Positions 8,709-21,735 of a stretch of DNA of 22,314 bases are shown one piece after another. The DNA comes from Anaerolineales bacterium UBA6663 (lineage in GTDB: Bacteria; Chloroflexota; Anaerolineae; Anaerolineales; UBA6663). A program made the position numbers and the translations under genes. Numbering within the stretch: the stretch's first letter is position 1; each line of letters starts with the position of its first letter. A model generated the notes under the pieces. That model saw only the letters and a list, made by a program, of their open reading frames with translations, made no database searches and was not told the origin of the DNA. The stretch spans positions 629-22,942 of the forward strand of contig DKKP01000393.1 in assembly GCA_002455335.1 (NCBI GenBank). Direction: 5' to 3'.

Positions 8709-8745
8709 AAACAAAAACAGCCAACCCGGCCGGGTTGGCTGTTTT
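8709..8745 (-). terminator. Attenuator terminator upstream of the ABC-mtnK operon
   Basis: A perfect 32-nt palindrome (8714-8745, 16 base pairs, practically with a GGCC loop) is followed on the minus strand by TTTTTGTTTC. It lies between a Cys-rich leader ORF and the first structural gene, so it can only act by stopping transcription before the operon. The plus strand also has four Ts at the end of the stem, so weak bidirectional activity is possible. Confidence 0.88.
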
Positions 8746-8773
8746 CAGATCGTGGCGGAAACGAAAAGCCGTG

Positions 8774-8872
8774 CTAACGATCGATGCCCTGACCCCGGAA
8801 GCGCGTGGCGGCTGAGGAACACATGCTCCCCAGCTTGGCACAACACATCGCGGGACAGGACTTAACGGACAT
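8774..8872 (-). CDS. Cys-rich leader peptide A (32 aa) for the ABC-mtnK operon
   Basis: The ORF of 32 codons ends in TAG 28 bp before the attenuator palindrome. It contains the cluster SCPAMCCAKLGSMC with four cysteine codons. The ATG is only 8 nt after an extended -10-like sequence and lacks a clear ribosome site, so it may be translated nearly leaderless. A segment in its 3' half (CCGGGGT, 8798-8792) can pair with the ACCCGG of the terminator's 5' arm, an imperfect antiterminator. The same architecture occurs at four other units in the window, which is the main evidence that it is real. It is presumed to sense Cys-tRNA supply. Confidence 0.8.
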   Translation of the reverse strand: MSVKSCPAMCCAKLGSMCSSAATRFRGQGIDR

Positions 8873-8879
8873 GGGTGTG

Positions 8880-8888
8880 ATGCTAACA
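8880..8888 (-). promoter_or_regulatory. Putative extended -10 promoter for leader A
   Basis: On the minus strand TG-T-TAGCAT (8888-8880) forms an extended -10 element ending 7 nt before the leader A ATG. A TTGACA (8899-8894) is also present but only 8 bp upstream, so it cannot be its -35. The call rests on the similar short -10 to ATG distance seen at leaders B and D. Confidence 0.4.
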
Positions 8889-9024
8889 CAGGCTGTCAAG
8901 CGGTCTGTGGCCGATATGGTCCATCTTTTGTGTCACGAGCCTGGGCGATTCGACAGACGCCGCGCTTTCAGCCTTTGTGGCGTCGACAAAGTGTGGCCTT
9001 GGCACACGTGGGCGCATTTGCGTC

Positions 9025-9052
9025 TTGACTTTGGTTTGGGAACCTATATGAT
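9025..9052 (+). promoter_or_regulatory. Sigma-70-type promoter of the metY leader
   Basis: TTGACT (9025-9030) and TATGAT (9047-9052) are separated by 16 bp, a good vegetative-type promoter. Transcription would begin near 9059, only a few bases before the leader ATG at 9066. The segment between this promoter and that of leader A (8889-9024) is divergent intergenic DNA. It contains a small inverted repeat CTTTGT-N7-ACAAAG (8973-8991) that might be an operator; nothing else is recognised in it. Confidence 0.8.
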
Positions 9053-9065
9053 CTTGCGAACGCGT

Positions 9066-9158
9066 ATGCGAAACCCTCAGCCCCTTTGTTGTCCGACTTG
9101 CGCGATGTGTAGCGAGAAGAACTCGGGGATGTGGGTCGCCTGCGTGCCGAACGACTGA
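9066..9158 (+). CDS. Cys-rich leader peptide B (30 aa) for metY
   Basis: The 30-codon ORF contains LCCPTCAMC early and a further cysteine near its end, five Cys codons in all. It starts about 7 nt after the predicted transcription start and has no ribosome site, which suggests near-leaderless translation. An upstream in-frame ATG (9048) lies within the -10 and would not be transcribed. Its stop is 30 bp before the attenuator stem. Within the ORF, GTGGGTCG at 9131-9138 is exactly complementary to 9192-9199 in the terminator's 5' arm. A ribosome stalled on the Cys codons (9087-9110) would leave that segment free for an antiterminator. Confidence 0.83.
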   Translation: MRNPQPLCCPTCAMCSEKNSGMWVACVPND

Positions 9159-9199
9159 TTTCGAACGACGCAGCTTACGGCAATCAACGGCCGACCCAC
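9131..9199 (+). promoter_or_regulatory. Antiterminator pairing in the metY leader
   Basis: GTGGGTCG (9131-9138), inside the leader peptide ORF, is an 8-nt exact complement of CGACCCAC (9192-9199), the bulk of the terminator's 5' arm. The two structures exclude each other. A further stem, CTGCGT (9140-9145) with ACGCAG (9168-9173), spans the leader stop codon and would be disrupted by a ribosome finishing the leader. These alternative pairings are what attenuation requires. Folding energies were not computed. Confidence 0.65.
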
Positions 9200-9220
9200 C
9201 TGGGTCGGCCATTTTGTTTT
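9189..9220 (+). terminator. Attenuator terminator upstream of metY
   Basis: A 10-bp perfect GC-rich stem (9189-9198 with 9201-9210) with a minimal loop is followed by ATTTTGTTTT. It lies 19 bp before the metY start, in its 5' leader, so it acts as a conditional terminator. Confidence 0.9.
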
Positions 9221-9238
9221 CGGAGCATCGAGCGGGAA

Positions 9239-20005: not shown

Positions 20006-21085
20006 TCACCGATCGCTGACAGCCGCCAGATCCTTTTCGGCAAGCACTTCATTGAGCAATGTCAGGTCGTAGATCCCGGTGAGATCCGGCTTCTCGGTCA
20101 GAAAACCGGCGTTGAAGGCCGACTCGGCTGAAGTCTTGAGCGAGCTCGCAATAGGATCCCAAGTCACGCGCAGGCGCTCCCAGGCTTGGTCGAGCACGTC
20201 GTCCTTGAGTTTCTTGCCCGTGATCTTCTCGATCTCGGTGTTCACGATCGCCTTCGCATCGGCGGGATGATCCTGCTCCCACTGTGTGATGGAGACGTGA
20301 GCTTCGAGCCACTTCTTCACGATGTCAGGATGGGCGTTGAGGAACTCCGTACTCACGATGATGTGGGTCGTGACGAAATCACCGTTTGGCCAGAGGTCGC
20401 GCTCGTCGACGAACACGGTGCCGCCGCCTTCGACGATCAGGCGGCTGGCCCAGGGCTCGGGCACCCAGGCACCGTCGATGGAGCCCTGGCGGAAGAGATC
20501 AAGCGTCTGCGAATTCTCGGTCGGGATGACCTCGACGGTCCCGCCGTTCTCGGTGGTTTGCAGACCGTGGGTCACGATGTAGTTGCGGAGCGCCACGTCT
20601 TGCGTGCCGCCGAGTTGCGGCGTCGCGATCTTCTTGCCGGCCAGATCTTCCGGTTTGGTGATGCCCGCCTCAGGCCGGACGATGAAGGCCGCGCCACCGC
20701 TCGTCGCGCCGGCGACGATCCGCAGCGCCTTGCCATCCGACTTCACGTAGCCGTTGATCGCCGGGTTCGGCCCAATGTACGACAGATCGATCGCGCCCGC
20801 GAAGAGCGCCTCGATGACGGCCGGGCCGGCGTTGAACGAGGTCGCCTCGATCTTGACGTCGTCGCCGAGCGCCGATTGAAAGTCGCCGCGGGAGAGGCCG
20901 ATGAGCGCCTGCGAATGGGTCAGGTTGGGGAAGTACCCGACGCGAATCGTCACGGCGCCGCTGGTTGATGCTGCAGTGGCGCCGGGCGCGGGCGTGGCCG
21001 GCGTCGGCGCCGCTGGCGCACAGGCCGTCAGCACGGCCAGAGCCAGAGCACCAAGAGCCGGTTTGATCGGATGACGATTAGTCAT
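20006..21085 (-). CDS. Sulfonate/taurine/nitrate-type ABC substrate-binding lipoprotein
   Basis: The product has 359 residues from the start at 21085, which has AGGAGG 8 nt upstream. A signal peptide with lipobox LTAC is followed by an Ala/Pro linker and a SsuA/TauA/NrtA-type domain: RVGYFPNLTHSQALIGLSRG, GPAVIEALFAGAIDLSYIGP and IDGAWVPEPWASRLI. Such proteins bind aliphatic sulfonates, taurine, nitrate or thiamine precursors. Co-transcription with cysK and cysE and the Cys leader point to an organosulfur ligand. No permease or ATPase gene is adjacent, so it must work with a transporter encoded elsewhere. Confidence 0.92.
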   Translation of the reverse strand: MTNRHPIKPALGALALAVLTACAPAAPTPATPAPGATAASTSGAVTIRVGYFPNLTHSQALIGLSRGDFQSALGDDVKIEATSFNAGPAVIEALFAGAIDLSYIGPNPAINGYVKSDGKALRIVAGATSGGAAFIVRPEAGITKPEDLAGKKIATPQLGGTQDVALRNYIVTHGLQTTENGGTVEVIPTENSQTLDLFRQGSIDGAWVPEPWASRLIVEGGGTVFVDERDLWPNGDFVTTHIIVSTEFLNAHPDIVKKWLEAHVSITQWEQDHPADAKAIVNTEIEKITGKKLKDDVLDQAWERLRVTWDPIASSLKTSAESAFNAGFLTEKPDLTGIYDLTLLNEVLAEKDLAAVSDR

Positions 21086-21137
21086 GACTCCATCCTCCTG
21101 AAATGCATTCACGCTGACGCGAAGTCCGTGTGAACCG

Positions 21138-21173
21138 AAAACAAAAAAGCCCAGGAGCGAACTCCTGGGCTTT
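21138..21173 (-). terminator. Attenuator terminator upstream of the sulfonate-binding/cysK/cysE unit
   Basis: On the minus strand a 12-bp perfect stem (21173-21162 with 21157-21146) closed by a TTCG tetraloop runs into TTTTTTGTTTTC. It lies between Cys leader D and the first gene. Just before it, a second hairpin (GCTTCcCTGC/GCAGaGAAGC, roughly 21185-21212) occupies the leader. Confidence 0.92.
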
Positions 21174-21238
21174 GCCTTCAGGCGTCGCTTCTCTGCAACG
21201 AACGCAGGGAAGCCGCCGATGTGTCTGTTCCGATTGGC

Positions 21239-21340
21239 TTACGTCGATGATGCGACGCTCGGTGCCGGAACAGGCGGGCAACTTCCCTGTCCTCGACACA
21301 TGCAACACAAGCAGGCTCGCATCAATCGATCTTGGATCAT
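21239..21340 (-). CDS. Cys-rich leader peptide D (33 aa) for the sulfonate-binding/cysK/cysE unit
   Basis: The 33-codon ORF contains ACLCCMCRGQGSC, five cysteine codons in twelve. The ATG is 9 nt after a consensus -10 (TATAAT), so transcription probably starts within about three bases of it and translation is leaderless or nearly so. The stop is 65 bp before the terminator stem. The genes controlled include cysK and cysE, that is, cysteine synthesis itself, which is the most direct argument that the signal is cysteine supply. Confidence 0.87.
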   Translation of the reverse strand: MIQDRLMRACLCCMCRGQGSCPPVPAPSVASST

Positions 21341-21349
21341 GCGAAAACG

Positions 21350-21355
21350 ATTATA
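21350..21355 (-). promoter_or_regulatory. -10 element of leader D promoter
   Basis: TATAAT on the minus strand (21355-21350) is a perfect -10 hexamer 9 nt before the leader D ATG. No good -35 is visible at 16-18 bp. The region from here to leader E (21356-21556) is a divergent intergenic stretch. It holds a small hairpin, CAGAC/GTCTG (about 21500-21518), and no recognisable gene. Confidence 0.65.
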
Positions 21356-21556
21356 ACTCAGCGTGGCAAGAGGCGCGTGATCGGTGACTGCCTTTGGGAG
21401 AATGGCCGTTGACGGTGGCGCGTAAGGACGCCAAAGACATCGCGGGCCAGTCATGGCGAAGCCGGTCTACGGCTCGGTGCGCGACTGTAAAGATCACACA
21501 GACGGTGGTGCCAGTCTGGGTTGTTCAGGTGTAGTCAAGGACGAGAAAGGCAGTGT

Positions 21557-21670
21557 ATGCTGATGCCCATGTTGACGTCACCCAAGATCATGGCTTGTTC
21601 GATCTGCCTGTGCTGTCTGTCCAAGGCGCAGGCACGCCTGATCCTGGGAGGTTCGACGCTGACGCGATAG
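21557..21670 (+). CDS. Cys-rich leader peptide E (37 aa) for the BCAA-type binding protein
   Basis: The 37-codon ORF starts at an ATG with GAAAGG (21545-21550) 6 nt upstream; further in-frame ATGs follow at 21563 and 21569. It contains MACSICLCC, four cysteine codons in seven. It ends 35 bp before an intrinsic terminator. The protein-coding gene it would control is the type-1 binding lipoprotein at 22013, about 280 bp after the terminator. No clear promoter is seen upstream. Confidence 0.8.
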   Translation: MLMPMLTSPKIMACSICLCCLSKAQARLILGGSTLTR

Positions 21671-21704
21671 CATCTCGTTCTATCGCACACCAATCGTCAA
21701 CGTC
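21655..21704 (+). promoter_or_regulatory. Alternative stem structure in leader E
   Basis: GACGCTGACG (21655-21664) pairs with CGTCAACGTC (21695-21704) at nine of ten positions. Inside it GCGATAG (21664-21670) pairs with CTATCGC (21680-21686). The structure covers the end of the leader ORF and abuts the terminator stem, so a ribosome reaching the stop would break it. It is a candidate pause or protector element of the attenuator. Confidence 0.55.
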
Positions 21705-21705
21705 A

Positions 21706-21735
21706 AGCCGGCCCTGGGGCCGGCTTTTTCGTTTT
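21706..21735 (+). terminator. Attenuator terminator of leader E
   Basis: A stem AGCCGGCCC/GGGCCGGCT (21706-21714 with 21717-21725, realistically eight pairs and a 4-nt loop) is followed by TTTTTCGTTTTC. It is the fifth terminator of the same kind in the window. Confidence 0.9.

Follow-up and report, generated by a model that had tools for sequence, protein, structure and literature searches.

Attenuators of the trp/his type combine a leader open reading frame (ORF) rich in regulatory codons, competing RNA helices (1:2, 2:3 and 3:4) and a terminator before the first gene. Control by Cys-bearing leaders has been proposed before: in one alphaproteobacterial order for cysS, where a terminator is present, and in actinobacteria, where there is none, as far as the accessible portions of those reports go. 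Among published leaders that have a terminator, the closest one we found is uORFC-8-2, a Cys-codon upstream ORF (uORF) of cysS in Rhodobacterales that is followed by an intrinsic terminator, with the tandem Cys usually at codons 14-15, and for which attenuation was proposed (PMC8632094, accessible in part). Actinobacterial Cys leader peptides are short, often leaderless uORFs 5' of sulfur genes (PMC1262725 and PMC4633059, accessible in part); the leaderless "metL" of S. lividans ends RCMCRRMCAF (PMC8079986, accessible in part). Here we describe five Cys-codon leaders in a 22,314-nt stretch of Anaerolineales bacterium UBA6663 (Chloroflexota; contig DKKP01000393.1, positions 629 to 22,942; hereafter, the window), each of which is most likely a ribosome-mediated, cysteine-responsive transcription attenuator, together with a conserved leader at cysteine synthase genes of the same order. 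As in trp/his-type systems, we found a codon-enriched leader ORF and a terminator before the first gene, with competing helices in relatives; unlike those systems, the leaders carry Cys codons, an extra 1:5 pairing and an outer helix spanning the U-run (both in relatives), and have no Rfam match. The succession of Cys-codon uORF and intrinsic terminator is shared with uORFC-8-2, whereas the targets differ: cysS only, in alphaproteobacteria, according to the accessible text, and here cysK, cysM, cystathionine beta-synthase and rhodanese genes plus salvage and import genes, in Chloroflexota. Unlike actinobacterial and mycobacterial leaders, which have no obvious intrinsic terminators in the accessible descriptions, all five leaders of the window have one. 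The initial annotation of the window had supposed that no set of Cys leaders with intrinsic terminators was described in this type of organism; uORFC-8-2 qualifies that statement, which stands for Chloroflexota insofar as no cysteine leader was recognised there in the literature searched, with subscription papers mostly outside the search. What is new is the lineage, the sequence and the target set; the principle is familiar.

The five short ORFs have 30-35 codons with 4-5 Cys each and a terminator 29-65 nt past the stop, and each leader with its terminator stands 5' of the first gene of a sulfur-related unit (transcription units were defined from sequence alone, and leader start codons are our choice). 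All five were located where the initial annotation had placed them, with the following features (window positions).

8774..8872, minus strand: Cys leader ORF of the abc/mtnK unit, MSVKSCPAMCCAKLGSMCSSAATRFRGQGIDR; 32 codons, Cys at 6, 10, 11 and 18, all TGT; TAGCAT 7 nt 5' of the ATG; stop to stem 29 nt
8715..8744, minus strand: abc intrinsic terminator, AAACAGCCAACCCGG-CCGGGTTGGCTGTTT followed by TTGTTT
9025..9052, plus strand: metY promoter-like site TTGACT-16-TATGAT, 13 nt 5' of the leader ATG
9066..9158, plus strand: metY Cys leader ORF, MRNPQPLCCPTCAMCSEKNSGMWVACVPND; 30 codons, Cys at 8, 9, 12, 15 and 26; stop to stem 30 nt
9132..9138, plus strand: candidate antiterminator segment TGGGTCG within the metY leader, complementary to CGACCCA (9192-9198) in the terminator 5' arm
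9189..9210, plus strand: metY intrinsic terminator
11122..11229, plus strand: Cys leader ORF of the unit of a cupin and a RuBisCO-like protein (RLP), MLMMTNERPNPVLCPCSCERGLVVCCRDDQRRDRM; 35 codons, Cys at 14, 16, 18, 25 and 26; stop to stem 38 nt
11268..11294, plus strand: intrinsic terminator 5' of the cupin gene
21239..21340, minus strand: ssuA-cysK-cysE Cys leader ORF, MIQDRLMRACLCCMCRGQGSCPPVPAPSVASST; 33 codons, Cys at 10, 12, 13, 15 and 21; TATAAT 9 nt 5' of the ATG; stop to stem 65 nt
21282..21289, minus strand: ssuA leader segment CAGGGAAG, codons G-Q-G-S, 8-nt perfect complement of CTTCCCTG
21205..21212, minus strand: CTTCCCTG, distal partner in the ssuA leader region, a possible counterpart of the relatives' CCCCGC
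21146..21173, minus strand: ssuA intrinsic terminator
21569..21670, plus strand: Cys leader ORF of the LIV-type unit (livK), MLTSPKIMACSICLCCLSKAQARLILGGSTLTR; 33 codons, Cys at 10, 13, 15 and 16; TATGCT 7 nt 5' of the ATG; stop to stem 34 nt
21705..21726, plus strand: intrinsic terminator of the LIV-type unit

Regarding how such leaders would act, we infer leader translation, stalling and the direction of the response. Scarcity of Cys-tRNA would halt the translating ribosome at the Cys codons of the short ORF; this would free an RNA segment that pairs with the 5' arm of the terminator, and RNA polymerase would then read through into the sulfur genes. When cysteine is sufficient, the ribosome would reach the stop codon and mask that segment, so that the terminator could fold. 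The layout is a genuine regulatory one and most likely serves cysteine-responsive attenuation. The abc unit also has a second Cys-rich ORF (MSPMSTNEWMAAESCCRCSSPCSF..., 8659-8505, minus strand) 3' of its terminator, with 4 Cys in 8 codons and an AGGAG-type Shine-Dalgarno (SD) sequence. This ORF overlaps the start of the binding-protein gene (8527) and could provide a further layer of control, at translation.

Cysteine makes up 23 of the 163 leader codons, against 1.3 expected from the genome's own long ORFs (binomial P = 2 × 10−21, a value inflated because the ORFs had been picked for Cys). The source genome is a metagenome-assembled genome of 451 contigs, of which 61 regions totalling 766,416 bases (∼16%, after removal of one duplicate) were scanned blind, as a fairer test, for ORFs 8-70 codons long that had at least 4 Cys within a 15-codon stretch and a stop 0-80 nt 5' of a terminator. 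The scan returned six matches, five of them the window's leaders. The sixth (L318:1631-1554) was rejected: it overlaps a coding sequence in another frame, presumably rplS (ribosomal protein L19), and then comes that gene's terminator. Under the same rule, other amino acids gave few matches (M, 3; Q, 3; W, 2; K, 2; I, 2; H, 1; N, 1; F, 0; Y, 0). The leader Cys codons comprise 15 TGT and 8 TGC, against a TGT share of 29% in the genome's long ORFs (P = 3 × 10−4). A sequence pattern meant to pick out Cys-rich DNA gave no information, as its 93 and 88 matches were fewer than those of the reversed control (155 and 135), and no NCBIfam family was found for seven leader peptides.

A TANNNT box precedes the ATG in three of the five leaders (by 7 nt in livK and abc, and by 9 nt in ssuA), compared with a background of 107 of the genome's 8,900 ATGs with TANNNT at 6-9 nt; the cupin leader has TATAGC at 9 nt and the metY leader TATGAT at 13 nt. 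At the genome's second cysK copy, TAGAAT stands 9 nt 5' of the leader start. Promoter-like boxes so close to the ATG suggest that leader transcripts of the window's lineage are leaderless or nearly so, a kind of start described for mycobacteria (PMC4633059), while several other families of the order have SD-like sequences at their leaders instead.

Relatives carry a conserved leader at their cysteine synthase genes. cysK was traced in 101 genomes, 73 of them with a match at E ≤ 10−60; the named cysK loci are the best 80 of 586 confirmed stretches, of which 78 were scanned (L135 and L155 are without upstream DNA). Upstream of cysK, many of the relatives' loci have a short ORF whose last codons read C-x-C-x-[mostly R/G/W]-R-G-x-stop. 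We kept 26 cysK leaders, selected partly with a GGCGGG-type regular expression; 13 of these came from the 78 scanned loci, and all 13 loci were labelled Chloroflexi, Chloroflexota, Anaerolineae, Anaerolineales, Anaerolineaceae or Levilinea. With gaps allowed, the 26 leaders share a common plan: TGC NNN TGT, nGGCGGGG (element 1), the stop codon, CCGCC (element 2), the 5' half of an outer stem, the terminator 5' arm (element 3), CCCCGC (element 5), the 3' arm with its T-run (element 4) and the 3' half of the outer stem. The possible partners are elements 2 and 5 for element 1 (the 1:5 pairing joins GCGGGG of the leader to the CCCCGC of the terminator loop), 1 and 3 for element 2, and 2 and 4 for element 3; 1:2 and 3:4 are each incompatible with 2:3. 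This conserved cysK/cysM version thereby has the competing helices that ribosome-mediated attenuation, the mechanism initially read from the window's layout, needs. A CGG codon stands at its place after the nGG codon in 50 of 50 matches to the covariance model described below, while the residue of the preceding codon varies (R, G or W; S, K or E in five matches, which have TCG, AAG or GAG before CGG instead of nGG). With CGG constant and the preceding residue variable, nucleotides rather than residues therefore seem to be kept, although the fixed CGG is partly circular because the leaders were selected with the GGCGGG-type expression.

To assess the pairings, duplex energies of partners from the same genome were compared with those of partners from different genomes. 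For 25 of the 26 leaders (L114 dropped; element 5 mis-picked in at least L161 and L132), 1:5 duplexes had −18.3 kcal/mol within versus −16.4 kcal/mol between genomes (p ≤ 5 × 10−5) and 1:2 duplexes −16.7 versus −15.5 (p = 0.0015). An alignment (A2), from which covariance model R1 was built, held the 15 of the 26 leaders with a recognisable outer stem (17 at first; L117 and L132 left out), and same-genome duplexes were again stronger (1:2: p = 4 × 10−4; 1:5: p = 3.5 × 10−4; 2:3: p = 5.5 × 10−4; 3:4: p = 1 × 10−4), with p = 0.11-0.87 for four non-partner control duplexes. The outer helix gave p = 5 × 10−5, a value biased because the leaders were chosen for the outer stem and its 3' end was set by eye. 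In fixed columns of 1:2, 3:4 and the outer helix together, 14 of 25 pairs change on both sides (5 in 3:4, 1 in 1:2 and 8 in the outer helix), compared with a shuffled mean of 7.7 (14 was reached by 0 of 500 shuffles), and 87.4% of cells are paired versus 77.7% in shuffled and 35-62% in slid versions. By columns, 1:5 is paired in 86.4% of cells (shuffled, 82.7%; slid, 31-51%). The outer helix (e.g., GCCAGCAG/CTGCTGGC; L061, L063, L070, L073, L074 and others) encloses the terminator and its T-run, and its 8 doubly changed pairs are out of 10 (in A2, with stem ends set by eye).

Model R1 matched 184 of 301 relatives at E ≤ 0.05 (best E = 9.5 × 10−25), of which at most 15 are training genomes; the 184 genomes overlap with the training set, as do the 26 leaders with the 50 model matches. 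In an even sample of the phylum (301 genomes), 22 matched at E ≤ 0.001, 21 of them in the window's order and one elsewhere in the class, in a search that would miss diverged forms. Downstream genes were assigned at 50 loci (the 30 best R1 matches plus 20 picked from further matches), taking the longest ORF found and comparing it with four references, three of them from the set itself: 16 were cysK, 24 cysM-like, 4 of cystathionine beta-synthase type and 6 rhodaneses (as exceptions, the L199 gene starts 923 nt away and the L205 DNA is masked). One protein was checked for each of three types: the best NCBIfam match of a cysM-like protein was cysM, under cut-off (318.7 versus 394.2 bits), a cystathionine beta-synthase-type protein was above its NCBIfam cut-off (531.7 bits), and a rhodanese-type protein matched Rhodanese in Pfam and mercaptopyruvate sulfurtransferase below its NCBIfam cut-off. 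The rhodanese-type sulfurtransferases behind the attenuator (L220, L221, L222, L224, L227 and L229) point to a sulfur-transfer enzyme in the same circuit. Two tandem R1 matches (G251:C58:1655-1805 and 1960-2100; L226) stand before one cysM-like gene. Rfam 15 (T-box, SAM and others) gave no matches in the window at the gathering score and none in the leaders of 14 relatives' loci, where the sole match was a SAM riboswitch (RF00162) outside the leader, downstream of cysK in L071 (3475-3573). The metY gene of L071 is on the same contig, and the window genome's metY has a Cys leader; a swap of sensor is possible.

Switching of the window's own leaders was predicted by folding the RNA exposed downstream of a ribosome placed at Cys codons (the first 3 or 4 of each leader) or at the stop codon, before the terminator 3' arm exists, with an assumed 12-nt ribosome margin and 300 dinucleotide shuffles. 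The probability that the terminator 5' arm is held upstream was 0.87 under stall and 0.40 at the stop for metY, 0.75 and 0.01 for cupin, 0.69 and 0.32 for livK, 0.52 and 0.09 for abc, and 0.61 and 0.57 for ssuA. For the five leaders jointly, the mean predicted antiterminator gain between the stall and stop positions was 0.41, versus 0.09 in shuffles (p = 0.003). In this model, four of the five leaders lean toward the expected direction, with the set jointly significant and one leader significant alone; the strongest predicted ribosome-dependent switch is that of the cupin leader.

Several results weigh against cysteine-responsive attenuation at these leaders, or against its conservation. Taken singly, only the cupin leader falls below 0.05 (p = 0.010; metY, 0.076; abc, 0.083; livK, 0.113), and the ssuA leader shows no switch in the simple folding model (p = 0.462). 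In four of the five leaders the complete terminator, once present, gives the fold of minimum energy despite a stalled ribosome, the exception being the cupin leader at its last three Cys codons; a switch would therefore have to be kinetic. Without a ribosome, the 5' arm is still held upstream in metY (0.90) and livK (0.67), unlike in the classical attenuation model; values are lower for abc (0.33), ssuA (0.30) and cupin (0.27). Among the relatives' pairings, 2:3 is weak by columns (71.6% paired versus 69.3% shuffled), and 18 of 500 shuffles attained its covariation, to which a slide by 3 columns also came close; covariation of 1:5 was not beyond shuffles because its columns vary too little. 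The permutations ignore kinship (shared ancestry), the leaders were preselected (the 26 partly by the GGCGGG motif, the 15 by a recognisable outer stem), and attenuation does not account for the outer helix across the T-run.

The link between the window and its relatives is also affected. R1 had no match at E ≤ 0.05 in the window's own genome and matched one of the five other family members listed. The ssuA leader scores 13 bits with R1, with TGC-ATG-TGT, CAGGG and CCCTGC aligned in register. Because CAGGGAAG and CTTCCCTG are perfect complements, the 1:5 idea may hold with other letters in this leader, and CAGGGAAG is a possible counterpart of the relatives' leader element 1; leaders of another family (L071, L072 and L076) have CCAGGG and TCCTGG. 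An ssuA Cys leader was found in none of 8 readable relatives' loci (9 other loci; L249 and L250 left out), and ssuA of the genus-mate G001 retains the box (TACAAT) and the terminator without an intervening Cys ORF. No metY locus among 29 others has at least 4 Cys in 15 codons (3-Cys ORFs occur in five, in no case followed by a terminator), and none of 10 regions with RLP clusters, several cut by contig ends, has at least 4 Cys with a terminator or box, only scattered 3-Cys ORFs. The abc binding protein had no homologue at E ≤ 10−40 in 100 relatives, and conservation of its leader therefore cannot be judged. The expectation that relatives would share the leaders was thus borne out for the leader type at cysteine synthase genes and failed at the ssuA, metY and RLP homologues (livK was not searched). 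The leaders of the window resemble a local form of the conserved type that has diverged and is almost leaderless, and we infer that they work like the conserved cysK/cysM ones. A second leader type occurs at the genome's second cysK copy (L089; G000:C241, leader at 2744) and at the cysK of G001 (L090; G001:C406, leader 19971-19900, minus strand). Both end CLCSCA-stop, have 3-4 Cys, lie 93-96 nt 5' of cysK with a hairpin over the stop codon, and are probably leaderless. They have neither a terminator nor an SD switch in folding and need another mechanism; a model of SD sequestration at the second cysK copy was rejected, as folding gave no difference between ribosome positions.

These terminator-less cysK leaders speak for the first of three alternatives, that Cys-rich leaders act mainly at translation or through Rho and that the terminators are incidental. 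The SD-led second ORF of the abc unit, overlapping the binding-protein start, fits that alternative as well, and actinobacterial polycysteine uORFs offer precedents in the accessible parts of their descriptions (Seliverstov 2005, PMC1262725; Shell 2015, PMC4633059). We nonetheless consider it unlikely, given a terminator before the first gene in all five window leaders and in most conserved cysK/cysM leaders, helices that covary with the terminator arms, and folding without leader-dependent SD exposure at the second cysK copy. Rather less probable is a nascent-peptide, metal or redox sensor, in which the Cys-rich peptide would bind metal, sulfide or an electrophile and arrest the ribosome, which would in turn bring about attenuation. 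Those genes that were identified are sulfur genes, and the five window peptides have no obvious common sequence beyond Cys; clusters such as CCPTCAMC could bind metals, and the motif C-x-C-x-x-R-G does recur, but its R-G is explained by RNA pairing, with CGG fixed while the preceding residue changes (subject to the partly circular selection). Least credible is chance, with Cys-rich frames of no significance lying next to terminators that simply end the upstream genes: GC-rich DNA does yield such ORFs (the 766 kb contain 153 that reach 4 Cys within 15 codons), and one outside the window also adjoins a terminator, but five matches in the 22 kb of the window compared with one in the remaining 744 kb, promoter-like boxes directly 5' of the leader ORFs and the wide spread of a counterpart at the order's cysteine synthase genes all speak against it.

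Cysteine-responsive attenuation also suits the genes behind the leaders, which are as follows.

7295..8527, minus strand: sugar-type ABC substrate-binding protein (Peripla_BP_4), first gene of the abc unit
3400..4617, minus strand: mtnK, S-methyl-5-thioribose kinase (TIGR01767, 450 bits versus cut-off 275), on the same strand as the ABC genes
9239..10537, plus strand: metY, O-acetylhomoserine sulfhydrylase family (TIGR01326, subfamily, above cut-off)
11314..11712, plus strand: cupin-2 protein, first gene of the RLP unit
16876..17997, plus strand: RLP
20006..21085, minus strand: SsuA-family (aliphatic sulfonate) substrate-binding protein (TIGR01728, 213.5 bits versus cut-off 163.5)
18996..19928, minus strand: cysK, cysteine synthase A (TIGR01139, 478.8 bits versus cut-off 350.95)
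18131..18832, minus strand: cysE, serine O-acetyltransferase (TIGR01172, 244 bits versus cut-off 210.65)
22013..22314, plus strand: Peripla_BP_6 binding protein of the LIV-type unit, start only, running past the window end

That these genes fit a sulfur circuit, as first proposed, is upheld by the methylthioribose (MTR) kinase, CysE, the SsuA-family protein and CysK, all above their NCBIfam cut-offs, and further by the MetY-type sulfhydrylase above its subfamily cut-off, the RLP and the cupin. The combination of MTR kinase, RLP, cupin and MetY is, we presume, reminiscent of the methylthioadenosine-isoprenoid shunt. On the widest interpretation, which may equally well prove right or wrong, cysteine supply in Anaerolineales would run through an undescribed RNA class, a translated, pseudoknot-capable attenuator in which the leader codons GGCGGGG choose between a proximal and a terminator-loop partner and an outer helix spans the poly-U. 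It would be the order's standard cysteine sensor at rhodanese and cystathionine beta-synthase genes as well as at cysK and cysM, rebuilt in near-leaderless form in five operons of the window's lineage, where a single cysteine-controlled circuit would take in methylthioribose import, MetY, the cupin/RLP unit, the LIV-type importer, and cysK-cysE together with sulfonate uptake. Many members of this Chloroflexota order carry the covarying version, absent from Rfam, at cysteine synthase genes, and one genome spreads the leader design over five sulfur units. This provides a candidate cysteine sensor for a large, mostly uncultured group, in which the named strain Levilinea saccharolytica KIBI-1 (L161) carries the cysK leader, and predicts a function for poorly known transport and RuBisCO-like genes. 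In the LIV-type unit, further along the contig, a MtaA/CmuA-like methyltransferase (L040 3952-5004) stands between the binding protein and the permease, which suggests a methylated, perhaps sulfur-containing, substrate.

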